From: Roseivirga sp.
Lineage (GTDB): Bacteria > Bacteroidota > Bacteroidia > Cytophagales > Cyclobacteriaceae
Direction: 5' to 3'
NCBI GenBank assembly: GCA_018402485.1
Contig: JAGYIY010000001.1
Location: 900,001-964,000 of the forward strand
DNA length: 64,000 nt
The notes beneath the pieces are model-generated. The model ran no database searches. It was not told the origin of the DNA and saw nothing but the letters and a program-made list of their open reading frames with translations. Every line of letters starts with the position of its first letter. Within the stretch, counting starts at the first letter, position 1. Positions 31,200-37,904 of this stretch are shown here, one piece after another. The translations under genes and the position numbers were made by a program.

Positions 31200-31850
31200 A
31201 TGTCAATCCTCAAAAGTTTGAATTCATGGGGCAACCCGCAAAATGCTTTTTATCTGCTTCTTGCGATTTACATCGCTGGGTTTATTGGTTTGAGAGCTTC
31301 AACTACGCAGGCTATTTTTCAGGCACTTACCCCTTTAAACTTACTGCTCACTGGCATGATCCTATTTCATTTTGAGACATCTAAAAATAAATATTACGCC
31401 ATTTTTCTCATCATCAGCTTTATTTTTGGATTTGGCATAGAAGTCATCGGTGTGAAGACAGGTTATGTTTTTGGTGATTATCAATACAGCGAAGTTTTAG
31501 GCCTACAGTTATTGAGTGTTCCACTGATCATCGGAGTAAATTGGGCTATTCTTATTTATTGCAGCGGAATTTTAGCAAAAAAGATGAGTGAAAACATCTT
31601 CATTCAAGCTTTGATTGCAGCGTTAATAATGACCCTTTTAGACTATTTTATAGAGCCAGTAGCCGTGGCATTAAATTTTTGGCAGTGGGAAGACACATCG
31701 ATACCCCTGAGGAATTATTTGGCTTGGTTCGTATTTAGCTACATCATGGTCTTGTTTTATTTCAAAATCCATCCAAATTCAAATAATCCCCTTGCCGTTA
31801 GGCTTTTACTCATTCTGCTTAGCTTTTTTGTGTTGTTGAATTTTATCTGA
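31200..31850 (+). CDS. Carotenoid biosynthesis membrane protein (PF04240, CruF-type)
   Basis: 216 residues, about seven membrane helices. GFGIEVIGVKTGYVFGDYQY, VNWAILIYCSG and MTLLDYFIEPVAVALNFWQW match the PF04240 family, which includes CruF, the hydratase acting on the 1',2' end of carotenes. First gene of the carotenoid island; crtZ follows after 37 bp. Short for CruF (usually 250-300). It might hydrate one end of the carotene, giving a monocyclic hydroxylated product, or have another role in the pathway. Confidence 0.85.
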   Translation: MSILKSLNSWGNPQNAFYLLLAIYIAGFIGLRASTTQAIFQALTPLNLLLTGMILFHFETSKNKYYAIFLIISFIFGFGIEVIGVKTGYVFGDYQYSEVLGLQLLSVPLIIGVNWAILIYCSGILAKKMSENIFIQALIAALIMTLLDYFIEPVAVALNFWQWEDTSIPLRNYLAWFVFSYIMVLFYFKIHPNSNNPLAVRLLLILLSFFVLLNFI

Positions 31851-31887
31851 ACTTTGCTAAACAAAACAACACAAAGGAGGTTCTTAT

Positions 31888-32340
31888 TTGATACTGATGG
31901 AAACAATACTTTGGTTTTTACTTGGCTTTTTCGCAACAGAAATCTTATCAGCCGCCATACACAAATACCTAATGCACGGGGTGTTATGGAAAATTCACAG
32001 GAGCCATCATACAAAAACAAAAGGTGTTTTCGAGTTGAATGATGTCTTTACTGTTTTATTTGGCGGTACTGCAGTGCTGCTTATGCTTTTGGGTAAAGGT
32101 GCTTTCGACTACAGGTTTTGGATAGGTTCTGGTATTTCCTTTTATGGATTATTGTACTTTATATTTCATGATGTGATGATCCATAAAAGAATGCAAGGAA
32201 TTAGGAAGCCTAACAATAAGTACTTGAGAGCAATATTTGATGCACATCAGGCACATCACAAAAGCAAAGAAAAAAACGATGCAGTTTCCTTTGGGTTGTT
32301 TATTGTGCCGAAAAGGTTTTTGAATAAACAGGAAGATTAA
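31888..32340 (+). CDS. crtZ: Beta-carotene hydroxylase
   Basis: 150 residues; di-iron membrane hydroxylase adding 3-OH to beta-ionone rings. His boxes HKYLMHG, HRSHH, HDVMIHKR and HQAHHKS are all present. Start: a strong Shine-Dalgarno AAAGGAGG ends at 31880, which is ideally placed for TTG 31888 (7 nt) and rather far for ATG 31897 (16 nt); both give the same mature protein less three residues. A clear SD is unusual for this window. Followed by the MerR gene after 13 bp. Confidence 0.93.
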   Translation: MILMETILWFLLGFFATEILSAAIHKYLMHGVLWKIHRSHHTKTKGVFELNDVFTVLFGGTAVLLMLLGKGAFDYRFWIGSGISFYGLLYFIFHDVMIHKRMQGIRKPNNKYLRAIFDAHQAHHKSKEKNDAVSFGLFIVPKRFLNKQED

Positions 32341-32353
32341 AAGAGGAAAAGAG

Positions 32354-33250
32354 ATGACGTCTTATTCAATTAAAGATTTGGAACATTTATCGGGTATTAA
32401 GGCCCATACGCTTAGGATTTGGGAACAGCGTTATAATTTGATTGACCCCAAAAGAACAGATACGAATATTAGGTACTATGATCAAGAGGACCTAAAGCTC
32501 GTGTTGAATGTTTCCTTGCTCAAAGATAATGGGTATAAAATCTCAAAAATTGCGAAAATGTCTGCGGAGGAAATGTTTCGATGCGTCAGAGAAATTTCAG
32601 ATAAAACGACCAGCTATGAAGATCAGATTCATGGCTTAACGCTCTCCATGATCGATTTGGATGAACAAAGGTTTGAAAAAATCATTTCCTCAAATACCTT
32701 GAAAATTGGTTTTGAAAGAACCATGCTCAATATCATATATCCTTTTTTGTCTAAAATAGGCATCATGTGGATCACCAATTCAGTTAATCCTGCACAAGAA
32801 CATTTTATTTCCAATCTGGTCAGGCAAAAAGTGATTGTGGCCATAGATGGACAGTATCAAACTTTTAATGAGCATGCCAAAAAATATATGCTGTTTCTTC
32901 CTGAAACTGAGCTGCATGAATTAAGCTTGCTTTTTGCGAATTATTTGATTCGGTCTAAAGGAAATAAAGTAGTCTATTTGGGTCAAAACATGCCATTTAT
33001 AGATTTACAAACGGTTTACAATACCTATCAGCCGGATTATTTAGTCACCATTCTCACTACTAGGGTTAAGCAAATGAGTTCGGAGGAATATCTGCAATTA
33101 CTCAGTGAAACCTTTCCAAAAACTGAAATATTGGTGTCTGGTAGTCAAGTAATAGGACAAGACCTGAACCTTTCGGAGAACATCATACCAATCGCAAATC
33201 CCAATCACTTGGTATCTTTCATAGAGGAGCATAATACTGAATTAGTTTAG
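32354..33250 (+). CDS. MerR-family regulator with cobalamin-binding domain (CarH/LitR-like)
   Basis: 298 residues. MerR HTH at 4-73 (IKAHTLRIWEQRYNLIDPKR), helical linker/B12-binding-2 four-helix region (about 90-170), Rossmann B12-binding domain (about 175-298). In the CarH light-sensor family, Trp-x9-Glu-His holds the adenosyl group; here Trp139, Glu149 and His150 fit exactly. The lower cobalt ligand motif (E-x-H-x-x-G) is Glu186-Leu-His188-Glu-Leu-Ser191, Gly replaced by Ser. The residue after the Trp is Ile140, where Thermus CarH has the His132 that forms the light-induced adduct. Lies between crtZ and an ECF sigma gene, so it probably represses the carotenoid genes in the dark; photochemistry may differ. 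Confidence 0.88.
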   Translation: MTSYSIKDLEHLSGIKAHTLRIWEQRYNLIDPKRTDTNIRYYDQEDLKLVLNVSLLKDNGYKISKIAKMSAEEMFRCVREISDKTTSYEDQIHGLTLSMIDLDEQRFEKIISSNTLKIGFERTMLNIIYPFLSKIGIMWITNSVNPAQEHFISNLVRQKVIVAIDGQYQTFNEHAKKYMLFLPETELHELSLLFANYLIRSKGNKVVYLGQNMPFIDLQTVYNTYQPDYLVTILTTRVKQMSSEEYLQLLSETFPKTEILVSGSQVIGQDLNLSENIIPIANPNHLVSFIEEHNTELV

Positions 33251-33322
33251 CTTACCTTATTTTTCTTACTTGTTTAAATATTAATTTATGAAAATGAACA
33301 GTTTAGAAACTTTGTGACTCTT

Positions 33323-33373
33323 AATGCATTTCTTGTTTAATGTATTTTTAAAAAGTTTCCACAAATACATTTG
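33323..33373 (+). promoter_or_regulatory. Candidate promoter/operator of the carotenoid sigma gene
   Basis: The 173-bp spacer before the ECF sigma gene holds three 8-bp near-palindromes: AATGCATT (33323), AATGTATT (33339) and AATACATT (33364). The last overlaps TACATTTG (33366-33373), a perfect TAnnTTTG -7 box 50 nt before the ATG. CTTGTTTAA is repeated at 33269 and 33332, 63 bp apart. A MerR-type repressor binding these would block the promoter. No consensus -33 box is seen at normal spacing. Confidence 0.4.
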
Positions 33374-33423
33374 CTTTTTGTTTAGCCTTTTCCGACTTTT
33401 GATAAACAAAAAAGGAAAAGACC

Positions 33424-33930
33424 ATGTCAACGCTTGAGTACAACCACACCATCAGTCAAATGTCAAAATCTTTAAAGCCCTTTGCTTTAAAATTGACAAA
33501 AGATGCAGAGGATGCCAATGATCTTTTACAAGAGACATTGATGAAAGCTTATAAGAACCGAGATAAATTTTCGGAAGGTACTAATCTAAAAGCGTGGCTT
33601 TTTACCATCATGAAAAATACTTTTATAACCAATTATCAGAAAATGGTAAGAAGAGGTACTTTCATTGATACAACAGATAACCTACACTTTATTAATGCCA
33701 GCGACGCTGAAATTACAAATGGTGCCTATGGTAATTTTGCCTTGAGAGATATTAATAAAGCCATCGATAACTTAGATGATGTTTATAAAACACCATTTAT
33801 GATGTACTTCAGAGGCTTTAAGTACCACGAAATTGCGGTGAGACTTGATATTCCTATTGGTACTGTGAAAAATAGAATACACATTGCTCGCAAACAATTG
33901 AAGGAAAAGTTAAGAACATACCGAGCCTAA
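33424..33930 (+). CDS. ECF-type sigma-70 factor of the carotenoid island
   Basis: 168 residues: region 2 (LKLTKDAEDANDLLQETLMKAYKNRDKF, here shown only in outline as DAEDANDLLQETLMKA; then LKAWLFTIMKNTFIT) and region 4 (FRGFKYHEIAVRLDIPIGTV, KNRIHIARKQLKEKL). No anti-sigma gene is adjacent, so control is probably transcriptional through the MerR gene upstream. In Streptomyces a LitR regulator controls the ECF factor LitS, which then transcribes crt genes; this gene occupies the LitS position, 16 bp before crtI. Confidence 0.93.
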   Translation: MSTLEYNHTISQMSKSLKPFALKLTKDAEDANDLLQETLMKAYKNRDKFSEGTNLKAWLFTIMKNTFITNYQKMVRRGTFIDTTDNLHFINASDAEITNGAYGNFALRDINKAIDNLDDVYKTPFMMYFRGFKYHEIAVRLDIPIGTVKNRIHIARKQLKEKLRTYRA

Positions 33931-33946
33931 GCGTAATTTAGCCTTC

Positions 33947-35419
33947 ATGAGTAAGAGGGTCATCGTTATTGGTTCCGGATTTGCCGGTCTATCAGCTGCC
34001 ACGCACTTAGCCAGCGAAGGGTGTGAAGTAACATTATTAGAAAAAAATACTACCATTGGAGGAAGAGCCAGACAGTTCAAAGCGTCGGGCTTTACTTTTG
34101 ATATGGGGCCAAGTTGGTACTGGATGCCAGATGTCTTTGAAAACTATTTCAGCCATTTTGGAAAATCGGTAGCCGACTATTATGAACTCGAACGACTTGA
34201 TCCTTCCTATCAGGTCGTTTATGGTGTTGAAGATCATCTCCAAATTCCTGCAAAAATGTCAGGACTCCGGCAAATGTTTGAGTCCGTTGAGCCAGGTTCA
34301 GGGGTTCGTCTCGATGCCTTTATGAAGCAAGCTGCCTATAAATATGAGGTGGGTATCCATCAATTGGTTAGAAAACCTGGAAGAAGCCTGAGGGAGTTCG
34401 CAAGCCTTAAGCTTCTGATAGATGTTTTGCGGATGGATGTCTTCAAATCCATGGCTTCTCATGTAAGAAAATACTTCACCCATCCAAAGCTGATTCAGCT
34501 CATGGAGTTCCCAGTTTTATTTTTAGGAGCTCTTCCTGAAAATACCCCTGCCCTTTACAGTCTGATGAACTATGCAGACATGTCCTTAGGTACTTGGTAT
34601 CCCAAAGGGGGGATGTTCAAAATTGTGGAGGGGATGCAAAAACTAGCAGAGGAGCAAGGCGTCAAAATCCTAACCAACCATGAAGTGAAAATAATAAAAG
34701 CTGAAAATGGTAAAGTTACTCAGGTAATAACGGATCAAGGTGCTTTTGATGCAGATGTATGCGTGGCAGGTGCAGACTATCATCATGTAGATCAGCATTT
34801 GTTAGAAAAAAAACATAGCAATTACTCCGCCACTTACTGGGATAAAAGAGTAATGGCCCCATCAAGCCTACTCTATTATGTAGGTTTAAATAAAAAAATT
34901 GATCGCCTCTTACACCACAATTTATTTTTTGATACCGATTTTGGTCCACATGCGAATGACATTTACACCCAACCACGTTGGCCCGATAATCCATTATTCT
35001 ACGCCTCGATTACTTCAAAGACCGATCCTACTGTGGCTCCGGAAGGTCACGAAAACCTATTTCTGCTTATTCCTGTAGCTCCAGGTTTAGACGATACTCC
35101 TGAAATTAGAGACCACTATTTTGACTTAATTATGAAACGTATGGAAAGCTTTATAGGCCAGAGTTTGAGAGAACACATTGTATACATGAGAACTTTTGCC
35201 CATAGTGATTTCATTAATGATTACCATTCTTTTAAGGGTAATGCCTATGGATTGGCCAATACCTTGCGTCAAACCGCAATTCTTAAACCAAGTCTTAAGA
35301 ATAAAACATTAAATAATTTATATTACACGGGACAACTCACTGTACCCGGCCCCGGAGTTCCTCCTAGTTTAATTTCTGGTGGGGTAGTGGCCAAAGAGGT
35401 GATGCGTGAACATTTTTAA
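33947..35419 (+). CDS. crtI: Phytoene desaturase
   Basis: 490-residue FAD enzyme introducing double bonds into phytoene to give neurosporene/lycopene. N-terminal FAD motif VIGSGFAGLSAATHLASEG, then GGRARQFKASGFTFDMGPSW; C-terminal CrtI signature YYTGQLTVPGPGVPPSLISG. The length is typical. Directly follows the sigma gene and is 6 bp ahead of crtB, the usual crtIB pair. Confidence 0.96.
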   Translation: MSKRVIVIGSGFAGLSAATHLASEGCEVTLLEKNTTIGGRARQFKASGFTFDMGPSWYWMPDVFENYFSHFGKSVADYYELERLDPSYQVVYGVEDHLQIPAKMSGLRQMFESVEPGSGVRLDAFMKQAAYKYEVGIHQLVRKPGRSLREFASLKLLIDVLRMDVFKSMASHVRKYFTHPKLIQLMEFPVLFLGALPENTPALYSLMNYADMSLGTWYPKGGMFKIVEGMQKLAEEQGVKILTNHEVKIIKAENGKVTQVITDQGAFDADVCVAGADYHHVDQHLLEKKHSNYSATYWDKRVMAPSSLLYYVGLNKKIDRLLHHNLFFDTDFGPHANDIYTQPRWPDNPLFYASITSKTDPTVAPEGHENLFLLIPVAPGLDDTPEIRDHYFDLIMKRMESFIGQSLREHIVYMRTFAHSDFINDYHSFKGNAYGLANTLRQTAILKPSLKNKTLNNLYYTGQLTVPGPGVPPSLISGGVVAKEVMREHF

Positions 35420-35425
35420 ATAAAG

Positions 35426-36286
35426 GTGACTGATTTGAGTTTAGAACAGAAAACACTTTTTGATCGAACAACCATGGAATGTAGTAAGCTCATTACTGAG
35501 CACTACAGCACTTCTTTTACCATGGGCATCAAGACGCTGCATAAAAAATATCATTTCCCAATCTACGCGATTTATGGTTTTGTACGCTACGCTGACGAAA
35601 TAGTTGATACCTTCCATGATCAAGATAAAGAAAGCTTATTGAACCGATTTGAGGCGGATACTTACCAGGCAATTGATGAAAGAATTAGCTTAAACCCCGT
35701 CCTTCATGCTTTTCAGTTGGTTGTGAATAAATATAGCATTGATAAAGAAATGATTGCAGCATTTCTTAAGAGTATGCGCTTTGATTTGAGTCTTAAAAAC
35801 TATGACGAAACGGGCTACGAAGATTACATATATGGATCTGCTGAAGTTGTAGGCTTAATGTGCTTGAAGGTATTTTGTGAAGGCGATCAAGCGGCGTTTG
35901 AATCGCTCCTTGCCCCTGCTAAAAAACTGGGTTCGGCTTTCCAAAAAGTCAACTTTTTAAGAGATATTAAAAGCGATTACGAAGAGCGTGGTAGAACCTA
36001 TTTTCCGGGTGTGCAATTCGACCATTTTAGCGAAGAAGCCAAGGCTGAAATTGAAGCTGATATCCAAAGGGATTTTGACGACGCCTTATTGGGAATACTT
36101 CGATTACCTAAAGGGGCTAAATTAGGTGTTTTTTTGGCTTATCGCTATTATTTAAAGCTATTCAACAAGATTAAAAAATGCCCCTCAAGTCGTATCAAAG
36201 AGGAGCGCATTCGAATTCCTAACGCGCATAAATTTTTGATTCTTTTAAGTAGTTACTTTCAAAATAGCCTACTTCCAAAACCCTAG
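35426..36286 (+). CDS. crtB: Phytoene synthase
   Basis: 286 residues (GTG start at 35426), squalene/phytoene synthase fold. Joins two geranylgeranyl-PP. First Asp-rich motif in VRYADEIVDTFHD, second in LRDIKSDYEERGRTYFP; YGFVRYADE is characteristic. Slightly shorter than many CrtB. No crtE lies nearby, so geranylgeranyl-PP must come from an enzyme encoded elsewhere. Confidence 0.95.
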   Translation: MTDLSLEQKTLFDRTTMECSKLITEHYSTSFTMGIKTLHKKYHFPIYAIYGFVRYADEIVDTFHDQDKESLLNRFEADTYQAIDERISLNPVLHAFQLVVNKYSIDKEMIAAFLKSMRFDLSLKNYDETGYEDYIYGSAEVVGLMCLKVFCEGDQAAFESLLAPAKKLGSAFQKVNFLRDIKSDYEERGRTYFPGVQFDHFSEEAKAEIEADIQRDFDDALLGILRLPKGAKLGVFLAYRYYLKLFNKIKKCPSSRIKEERIRIPNAHKFLILLSSYFQNSLLPKP

Positions 36287-36343
36287 CTATTGTCAAATGA
36301 TACATGCGTTTAAACATATATGAAAGGATAAAGTTTATACATA

Positions 36344-37189
36344 GTGTTAAATCTCACCGTAACCATAGATGATCACTCTGGCTTTTGCTTTGGCGTGGTA
36401 TATGCCATAGAAATGGCTGAGGATATTCTTGATGAAGAAGGTATTCTTTATTGTTTGGGAGATATTGTTCATAATGATGAAGAGGTGCATCGTTTACAGC
36501 AAAAAGGTTTAAAAATCATCGATCATCAAGAGTTGCAGGCAATACATAATGCTAAAGTGCTCATTCGCGCACATGGAGAGCCTCCTACCACCTACAAACT
36601 GGCACTTGAGAATAACTTGGAATTAATTGACGCATCGTGTCCGGTCGTACTTAAGCTTCAAAATCGAATTAAAAATAGTCATGATAAAAGAGAAGATATC
36701 TACATATATGGTAAGCATGGGCATGCTGAAGTGATAGGATTGCTCGGGCAGACTGAAAATGAAGCTGTTGTTTTTCAAGACCTCGATGAGCTTAAAACAA
36801 AAGATCTACCCCATGAGATTACCCTGTACAGTCAAACCACAAAAAGTACAGAACAATTTTATGAAATCAATAGGGTTCTCATAGATAGAGGAATCTCAGT
36901 CAAAACCCATGATACCATTTGTAGACAAGTGTCTAATAGAGATCAAGAACTTCGTGCCTTTGCAAAGAAATTCGATACCATCATCTTTGTAAGTGGCACA
37001 AAATCTTCTAATGGCAAAGTGCTATACAACGTCTGTAAGCAACAAAACCAACAGACCTATTTTGTCTCTGCTACCAAAGAAGTAAATCCTAAATGGTTTA
37101 TAAAAGGGGAGTCTGTTGGTATATGCGGCGCCACTTCCACACCCATGTGGTTAATGGAAGAGGTTAAGTCTTATCTAGAAAAAATATAA
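36344..37189 (+). CDS. ispH: 4-hydroxy-3-methylbut-2-enyl diphosphate reductase
   Basis: 281 residues from GTG 36344. Last step of the MEP isoprenoid pathway, a [4Fe-4S] enzyme making IPP and DMAPP. The three cluster Cys are in GFCFGVVYAI, DASCPVVLK and GICGATSTPMW; HGHAEVIGLLGQ has the active-site His/Glu region. Placed inside the carotenoid island, it would raise precursor supply together with crtB/crtI. Confidence 0.95.
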   Translation: MLNLTVTIDDHSGFCFGVVYAIEMAEDILDEEGILYCLGDIVHNDEEVHRLQQKGLKIIDHQELQAIHNAKVLIRAHGEPPTTYKLALENNLELIDASCPVVLKLQNRIKNSHDKREDIYIYGKHGHAEVIGLLGQTENEAVVFQDLDELKTKDLPHEITLYSQTTKSTEQFYEINRVLIDRGISVKTHDTICRQVSNRDQELRAFAKKFDTIIFVSGTKSSNGKVLYNVCKQQNQQTYFVSATKEVNPKWFIKGESVGICGATSTPMWLMEEVKSYLEKI

Positions 37190-37205
37190 AGCTTAATTTT
37201 ACGAA

Positions 37206-37904
37206 GTGAAAAACTTGAAACAGCATATGGGAGTGTTCGTGGCTATCAGCATTGTAGCTGCGTGGGTAGCTTTGTTGTTTTATGCTATGCAATGGAAAAT
37301 AGACTATAAATCACCTTGGTTGTACATTATGGTACTTTTACAAATGCATTTCTATACTGGCTTGTTTATTACCTCCCACGATGCAATGCATGGAACAGTA
37401 TCTGCGCATAAAAAATTAAACCATGGCATTGGCCATCTTACGGCCCTGCTTTTTAGTTTTAATTTTTACCATCGGCTGTTTCCAAAACATCATGAGCATC
37501 ACCGTTTTGTAGCAACTGATAAAGATCCTGATTATTACAAAGGTGGTTTTTGGCCATGGTATTTTAGTTTTATCAAGCAGTACATCAGTTGGCAACAACT
37601 GGTATTGATGGCGGTTACCTTTCACTTGCTGAGGATAGTTTTACCCACCGAGAACCTTATCATTTTTTGGATGCTTCCTGCCATTCTTTCTACTTTCCAA
37701 TTATTTTATTTTGGTACTTACTTACCGCATAAGGGAAGTCATGATCCGCAGAATAAGTATTTTTCACACAGTCAGAAAAAGAATCACCTCTGGGCCTTTT
37801 TGAGCTGTTACTTTTTTGGTTACCACTATGAGCATCATGCCTCTCCAGGCACACCATGGTGGAGGCTGTACAAGGTCAAGGAAAAACTTGAAATGAGCCG
37901 TTAA
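37206..37904 (+). CDS. crtW: Beta-carotene ketolase, CrtW-type
   Basis: 232 residues from GTG 37206. Membrane di-iron fatty-acid-desaturase fold with His boxes HDAMHG, HHEHHRF and GYHYEHHASPGTPWW, the CrtW pattern (also ATDKDPDYYKGG after box 2). It adds 4-keto groups to beta-ionone rings, so with CrtZ it could give astaxanthin-like ketocarotenoids. Last gene of the island, 16 bp after ispH; the stop overlaps a convergent small frame. Confidence 0.9.
   Translation: MKNLKQHMGVFVAISIVAAWVALLFYAMQWKIDYKSPWLYIMVLLQMHFYTGLFITSHDAMHGTVSAHKKLNHGIGHLTALLFSFNFYHRLFPKHHEHHRFVATDKDPDYYKGGFWPWYFSFIKQYISWQQLVLMAVTFHLLRIVLPTENLIIFWMLPAILSTFQLFYFGTYLPHKGSHDPQNKYFSHSQKKNHLWAFLSCYFFGYHYEHHASPGTPWWRLYKVKEKLEMSR

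Follow-up and report, generated by a model that had tools for sequence, protein, structure and literature searches.

The 64,000-nucleotide stretch of Roseivirga sp. DNA analyzed here (contig JAGYIY010000001.1, positions 900,001 to 964,000 of the forward strand; hereafter the window) carries the gene for a MerR-type regulator with a cobalamin-binding module (REG) next to the gene for an extracytoplasmic function (ECF) sigma factor (SIG), in the midst of carotenoid (crt) genes. According to the list of open reading frames (ORFs) and family searches, the gene order on the + strand between positions 31200 and 37904 is cruF, crtZ, REG, SIG, crtI, crtB, ispH and crtW (Table 1), which bears out the order given in a preliminary description of this DNA (regulator, ECF sigma factor, crtI, crtB, ispH and crtW, with a PF04240 gene and crtZ upstream). 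The gaps between SIG and crtI and between crtI and crtB measure 16 bp and 6 bp, respectively, and SIG appears to head a presumed crtI-crtB operon. The 173 bp gap between REG and SIG contains repeats of TGTTTA and TAAACA; the paired site that these form, TGTTTA-N18-TAAACA, and its predicted role in a light response governed by REG are the subject of this report.

REG shows a CarH-type architecture, i.e., a MerR helix-turn-helix domain followed by a cobalamin-binding module with the CarH fold. Family scores were 61.8 bits for MerR_1 and 26.9 bits for B12-binding_2 (PF02607; cut-off 23), and the top sequence match in the PDB was CarH of Thermus thermophilus (E = 9.7e-15). The predicted structure of REG (mean predicted local distance difference test score, pLDDT, 89.3), in which the Rossmann half of the module is present, gave full-length CarH as its first match (E = 1.2e-14). 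The cofactor residues Trp139-x9-Glu149-His150 and His188 (i.e., the W-x9-EH motif and the cobalt-ligand His) were found at the residue numbers previously assigned to them. With PF02607 over its cut-off and CarH as the top PDB and structure match, the best reading of REG is a CarH/LitR-like adenosylcobalamin (AdoCbl) regulator, as initially proposed. A check for an AdoCbl pathway, suggested at the same time, showed that supply is present in part, as the genome has genes for a PduO-type adenosyltransferase and a methylmalonyl-CoA mutase (both over cut-off), for MetH and for an IcmF-like mutase, the last being partly seen. As genes for both an adenosyltransferase and an AdoCbl-dependent mutase are present, AdoCbl is probably available in the host cell.

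For the paired site, a strict pair was defined as TGTTTA-N-TAAACA and looser halves as TGTnnA and TnnACA; the semi-strict pair was sought at N18 or N19. The window holds four copies of the semi-strict pair (O1 to O4), all of them at the locus, and only O4 is perfect. The reported consensus of the Bacteroidota primary sigma factor is TTTG/TAnnTTTG (PMC6847099), and a perfect TAnnTTTG lies between O3 and O4. By eye, O4 encloses GACTTTTG (33394-33401), a 7/8 match to the -7 element located 20 bp after the TTTG at 33370-33373, and O1 is overlapped by the promoter-like elements TTTG-N18-GAACTTTG. Binding of a protein here would mask the promoter, as would be fitting for a repressor. The layout of a repressed sigma operon, as previously suggested, is thus matched by a promoter element with paired sites between the regulator and the sigma gene. 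The proposal of a sigma-mediated circuit stands in so far as a site precedes SIG and has to be modified in that SIG seems to lead the crt operon, which would put the crt genes under direct control of the site in addition to any control via SIG.

Table 1. Genes, candidate operators and promoter element at the REG-SIG locus (positions in the window)
Feature	Position	Strand	Evidence
cruF-like carotenoid biosynthesis protein	31200..31850	+	PF04240, 110.5 bits (cut-off 25)
O1, TGTTGA-N18-TAAACA (one half looser)	31834..31863	.	before crtZ-REG
crtZ-like hydroxylase	approx. 31897..32340	+	PF04116, 40.2 bits
REG, MerR-type regulator with cobalamin-binding module	32354..33250	+	family searches, PDB match, predicted structure
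O2, TGTTTA-N18-TGAACA (one half looser)	33271..33300	.	pattern search
O3, TGTTTA-N18-TCCACA (one half looser)	33334..33363	.	pattern search
-7 element TACATTTG, perfect TAnnTTTG	33366..33373	+	consensus (PMC6847099)
O4, TGTTTA-N18-TAAACA (perfect)	33379..33408	.	pattern search
SIG, ECF sigma factor	33424..33930	+	Sigma70_r2, 53.3 bits; r4_2, 43.1 bits
crtI/crtD-type phytoene desaturase	33947..35419	+	NF058655 CrtID, 772.8 bits (cut-off 640)
crtB phytoene synthase	35426..36286	+	PF00494, 144.1 bits
ispH, HMBPP reductase	36344..37189	+	NF002187, 364.8 bits (cut-off 276)
crtW-like ketolase	37206..37904	+	218.7 bits, under the equivalog cut-off of 350

The paired site was then assessed in the REG-SIG gaps of 56 loci, the window included (55 distinct loci, as L039 and L130 are on the same contig), a set that is rich in related Algoriphagus sequences. 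At least one strict pair was present in 45 of the 56 gaps, and a pair with looser halves in 52; the half-sites numbered 198, as compared to 31 on average and 45 at most when the sequences were dinucleotide-shuffled 200 times. Strict pairs were spaced by N18 in 39 loci and by N19 in 10, with none at spacings of 6-17 or 20-27. Four gaps were without even a loose pair; L050 has none, and in L039 and L067 the limits of the listed ORFs cut the gap and the site exists there. In 23 of the 56 loci, TAnnTTTG lies within the pair and immediately precedes TnnACA (mean of 0.01 in 100 shuffles, in a test that mixes pair and -7 element), and another 11 occurrences of TAnnTTTG overlap the first half-site; the paired site in the REG-SIG gap thus often overlaps a Bacteroidota promoter element. 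Among the loci that have REG and crtI without SIG, 26 of 29 carry TGTnnA-N18-TnnACA at the start of REG. These positions bear on two alternatives, namely that REG is a classical MerR activator working from inside the promoter spacer and that the repeat belongs to a different regulator. MerR activators bind between the -33 and -7 elements, and one half-site does lie there. However, the pair encloses the -7 element in the 23 loci mentioned, which is the position of a repressor, the half-site starts are 24 bp apart and thus farther than in typical MerR dyads, which are shorter, and the excess of sites is confined to those surveyed genomes that bear REG (see below), so that we regard either alternative as very improbable.

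Of the 296 Bacteroidota genomes surveyed, 64 contained REG relatives in a protein search (E <= 1e-10), which rules out that such regulators are rare in this phylum; the viral contigs searched contained no relative. The arrangement had been called notable for a Bacteroidota genome, a view that we abandon as the pairing is widespread and one case, in strain GF1, is already in print (PMC6974559). Loci were fetched for the surroundings of 72 surveyed matches, for the second copy in the Roseivirga genome itself and for 80 named loci (the best 80 of 591), which had been retrieved with two peptide patterns; two loci without a REG frame (L108 and L154) were dropped. As one of the two patterns contained the ligand His, His counts were taken from the phylum survey. 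Of two recurrent layouts, one is REG-SIG-crtI-crtB, represented for instance by Algoriphagus, Roseivirga, Pontibacter and Marivirga. The other, REG-crtI-crtB, has no SIG and was seen at 29 loci, 27 of which belong to a single family, f7. Among the named loci, 38 of 79 had neither SIG, crtI nor crtB within 2.5 kb. Among the 73 survey copies (the two from the Roseivirga genome included), His188 was kept in all 50 that adjoin SIG, crtI or crtB and in 16 of the 23 that do not, and was lost in the remaining 7.

The conservation of these residues also bears on what REG might sense. REG could bind the sites and respond to the level of AdoCbl, to another ligand or to redox, with the light genes co-regulated otherwise. 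A published photoreceptor signature comprises GxxW, EH, GxxH and GxxxP (PMC11796333), and REG matches it save for the Gly of GxxH, which is Thr185; this one deviation may speak for such a sensor and against a photoreceptor. The REG orthologue of a same-genus genome has Gly at this position, and the His-bearing copies of the phylum survey have Gly in 25 of 66 cases and Asn in 31 of 66. On the other hand, of 91 copies linked to sigma or crt genes (partly from loci found with the His-containing pattern), 90 retain Trp, Glu-His and the ligand His together and one retains Trp and His, and many of the predicted targets are sunlight genes. Sensing of something other than light consequently appears unlikely to us.

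The genome also encodes a second REG homologue (C1:304696-305583; L036 7685-8605, minus strand), which is 44% identical to REG, has Gln where REG has the cobalt-ligand His and is located next to MoxR/VWA-like genes (names read from sequence); it is possibly a CarA-like, B12-independent partner. A His-less homologue in a same-genus genome (G320) has Ser at the ligand position. Further His-less homologues, none of which adjoins SIG or crt genes, were observed at L055, L056, L058, L069, L079 and L101 as well as at L163, L167, L175, L178 and L180. If a homologue of this kind (CarA-like or class II-like) were the main binder in vivo, light would be sensed elsewhere and REG would play a minor part. 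The homologues with Gln and Ser would fit this scenario, as would genome G064, in which the only surveyed REG copy (L055) is without the ligand His and a paired site still precedes a SIG homologue elsewhere (L229), and a precedent exists in the class II LitR of Pseudomonas, which is reported to work with a LOV protein (PMC9758184). It is opposed by the single REG match in 56 of the 64 REG-bearing genomes (of these, G064 and G178 have lost the His and G066 has no usable frame) and by the presence of the His in every surveyed copy that adjoins SIG or crt genes; overall, we consider a His-less main binder quite unlikely.

Some of the fetched loci differ in gene content. Two loci from metagenome-assembled genomes (MAGs) have no crt genes, i.e., L158 (5986-9613), where REG-SIG is followed by folE and a photolyase gene, and L173 (5989-8949), where it is followed by a photolyase gene; judged by their genes, these are predicted light modules uncoupled from carotenoids. 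The REG of L119, on a contig labelled as a Thalassovita sp. MAG, is 59% identical to the REG of the window, and the contig is probably a mis-binned piece of a Bacteroidota genome.

Across whole genomes, the site was found in excess only together with REG. In the 296-genome survey, TTGTTTA-N18/19-TAAACAA occurred at 137 sites (35 in the control) in the 64 genomes with REG relatives, as compared to 31 sites (40 in the control) in the 232 genomes without them (P = 1e-7 for the contrast; Fisher's exact test). In the Roseivirga genome, the pattern TTGTTNA-N17..20-TAAACAA was found at two places, both of them at the locus (reversed control: 1 forward and 3 reverse), and allowing up to one mismatch at N18 gave five sites, i.e., O4, O1, one before a rhodopsin gene and two that look like chance matches. 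The latter two are C1:62202, which is inside an ORF, and C1:1260669, which overlaps the start of an acetylglutamate-kinase-like ORF.

A total of 16 genomes, hand-chosen among those with REG relatives, were also scanned separately, and 37 exact-site loci, among the matches listed, were inspected (35 of them from REG-bearing genomes). Thirteen of these sites precede SIG or a SIG homologue, two crtI and one REG; others are found before rhodopsin (two), PTPS-folE (three), fasciclin proteins (five), an SDR (one) and a DUF2867 protein (one), and one is in a photolyase-related cluster. Control of photolyase was not counted for L212 (= L220), where the site adjoins a photolyase-related gene and points at a small unknown gene. 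Families near the distal sites were assigned by Pfam for 20 genes (one without a match), and the other gene names at exact sites were read from sequence. The Pfam assignments bore out rhodopsin, lycopene cyclase and blh at L214, rhodopsin and blh at L240, PTPS and folE at L215, as well as the SDR and the DUF2867 protein, and six proteins were found to have fasciclin domains. At six places in four genomes (L216, L219, L221, L222, L223 and L244), a site is immediately followed by the gene of a fasciclin-domain protein. The Roseivirga genome itself has a run of three consecutive genes of the photolyase/cryptochrome type (PF00875 for two and PF04244 for one; C1:1502209-1506641, L195 8210-12642), before which no site was listed within two mismatches.

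The association with rhodopsin was assessed in 50 of 70 listed rhodopsin matches (from 61 of 395 genomes), made up of 30 loci that were returned and 20 picked so as to cover all genomes in which REG had been found by that point, plus some others. A semi-strict pair was present upstream of the rhodopsin gene in 12 of 17 cases from REG-bearing genomes and in none of 33 from genomes without REG (P = 5e-8, Fisher's exact test, a value that overstates independence as the genomes are related). The Roseivirga genome has a rhodopsin-blh operon (C10:178699-180447; L257 1444-3192), i.e., a light-driven pump and a retinal-making dioxygenase, with a one-mismatch paired site (C10:178621-178652) 47 bp upstream of the rhodopsin gene.

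Taken together, these data favor, with a rough probability of 0.8, the reading of REG as a class I LitR/CarH-type AdoCbl photoreceptor-repressor of a light regulon with a Bacteroidota operator. We infer that REG binds the site and AdoCbl, represses, and responds to light. In the dark, REG with AdoCbl would sit on the TGTTTA-N18-TAAACA pairs over primary-sigma promoters and hold down SIG-crtI-crtB(-ispH-crtW) and crtZ-REG; in the light, breakage of the cobalt-carbon bond would release REG from its sites, and expression of the pigment operon, of the sigma factor and of REG would follow. By way of the same site, the switch would also govern the rhodopsin-retinal operon and other sunlight genes (for pterin synthesis and fasciclin proteins), in this genome and its relatives. 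A role for SIG as an amplifier is a guess. The broader proposal of a Bacteroidota-wide B12 light regulon, marked by TGTTTA-N18-TAAACA and in which one AdoCbl photoreceptor-repressor jointly switches carotenoids, proteorhodopsin and its retinal enzyme, pterins and fasciclins, seems to us rather probable.

Several observations weigh against this reading of REG and its regulon. REG reached 82.8 bits with the NCBIfam CarH model NF052513, short of the cut-off of 400, which, being a curated equivalog cut-off, is not a test of mechanism. A whole-genome search with the PF02310 model (E <= 0.001) for the Rossmann half found three other proteins and not REG. Both the Roseivirga genome and its same-genus relative carry a His-less homologue that might bind the same sites, and all counts were made over related, non-independent genomes. 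With two mismatches allowed, the Roseivirga genome showed no excess of the site (47 matches, as compared to 49 in the control, which covers this level only), and for this reason we used only its perfect and one-mismatch sites. For eight of the 37 exact sites inspected, no link to light is evident (KdsC-like, MnmA-like, SusC-like, GDSL-like or small unknown genes, or positions inside an ORF), two of these being from REG-less genomes and both inside ORFs. Of the five misses among the 17 rhodopsin genes of REG-bearing genomes, three encode distant rhodopsins (scores of 43.7, 52.5 and 62.1 bits against the seed), another is from G115, and the last is that of Roseivirga itself, counted as a miss because its site has one mismatch; when both halves were allowed to be loose, matches were also obtained for 2 of the 33 rhodopsin genes from REG-less genomes. 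Finally, the operator reported for Thermus CarH consists of 11-bp direct repeats, nAnnTnnACAn (PMC8156234), unlike the inverted pair found here, whose half-sites start 24 bp apart around an N18 spacer and do not form such repeats; the A that precedes the core by three bases is kept in only 7 of 41 aligned sites. CarH operators have been characterized as remarkably plastic (PMC9304148). One light-induced Bacteroidota pigment cluster is reported to have no recognised car/lit genes (PMC7064467); other switches may thus exist.

With regard to the remaining features of the locus, the listed crtZ-like ORF starts at a TTG (31888), with an in-frame ATG at 31897. The ispH gene, for the last step in isoprenoid precursor supply, is inside the pigment cluster here and in many relatives. 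No anti-sigma gene was noticed among the listed ORFs of at least 80 amino acids around SIG, and no search aimed at an anti-sigma factor was made at the locus or in the genome. The PF18916 lycopene cyclase had no match in this genome, whose assembly is 84.6% complete. Inspection by eye for a SIG-dependent promoter before cruF and before the photolyase cluster yielded nothing convincing, and a recurrent pattern before cruF resembles divergent primary-sigma promoters.

The type of switch is known, and what is likely new is a paired site that recurs in the phylum before other sunlight genes, including that of a light-driven ion pump. Through a concrete sequence element, the regulator is connected with crt genes; for proteorhodopsin and its retinal enzyme, such a connection is seen in relatives and is probable in the Roseivirga genome. 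If correct, this would supply a regulator for light-induced proteorhodopsin in Bacteroidota, and phototrophic capacity would depend on vitamin B12 supply; control of rhodopsin and of pigment is likewise predicted to depend on this vitamin. The question of how members of the phylum turn on light-harvesting rhodopsin would become one for gel-shift and reporter assays, and green-light-controlled parts could be obtained for a phylum with promoters unlike those of E. coli.

In the LitR-LitS-crt system of Streptomyces, a MerR-B12 regulator, an ECF sigma factor and crt genes are found together, and the window shows the same grouping, with the sigma gene adjoining the regulator and candidate operators O2 to O4 in front of it, as expected of a LitR-LitS circuit. 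Unlike in Streptomyces, SIG here apparently heads the crt operon, the crt genes appear to be directly under the site, and SIG is missing in 29 surveyed loci. The closest published case within the phylum is that of Flavobacteriaceae strain GF1, where a MerR regulator with a B12 domain precedes zeaxanthin genes and regulation under photo-oxidative stress was suggested (PMC6974559); the gene pairing is the same, and the available passages of that report give no operator, promoter or wider regulon. In our search of open-licence PMC papers, to the extent of the text available, we recognised no operator, promoter or regulon for a MerR-B12 regulator in Bacteroidota, and found neither the paired site nor B12-dependent control of rhodopsin described. 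The class II LitR regulon of Pseudomonas (PplR/PmlR) is reported to include folE and other pterin genes, a short-chain dehydrogenase and photolyase, and thus overlaps the targets predicted here; two paired sites around the promoter are a further similarity (PMC9758184). Unlike the system described here, its site is TGTACA-N12-TGTACA, and class II LitR retains the four-helix domain alone, with PmlR2 answering to a blue-light LOV protein (PMC9758184); REG, which has the Rossmann half in its model and His188, falls outside that class by these features, no search aimed at a LOV protein having been made. REG shares with Thermus thermophilus CarH and class I LitR the MerR domain, the four-helix and Rossmann cobalamin module, W-x9-EH and the ligand His, and with the Thermus system, as published, the core TnnACA of its candidate half-site and carotenoid genes as predicted targets. 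It differs from Thermus CarH in sequence, with approx. 20% identity over the structural alignment, in promoter elements of the Bacteroidota type and in a predicted regulon that includes proteorhodopsin.

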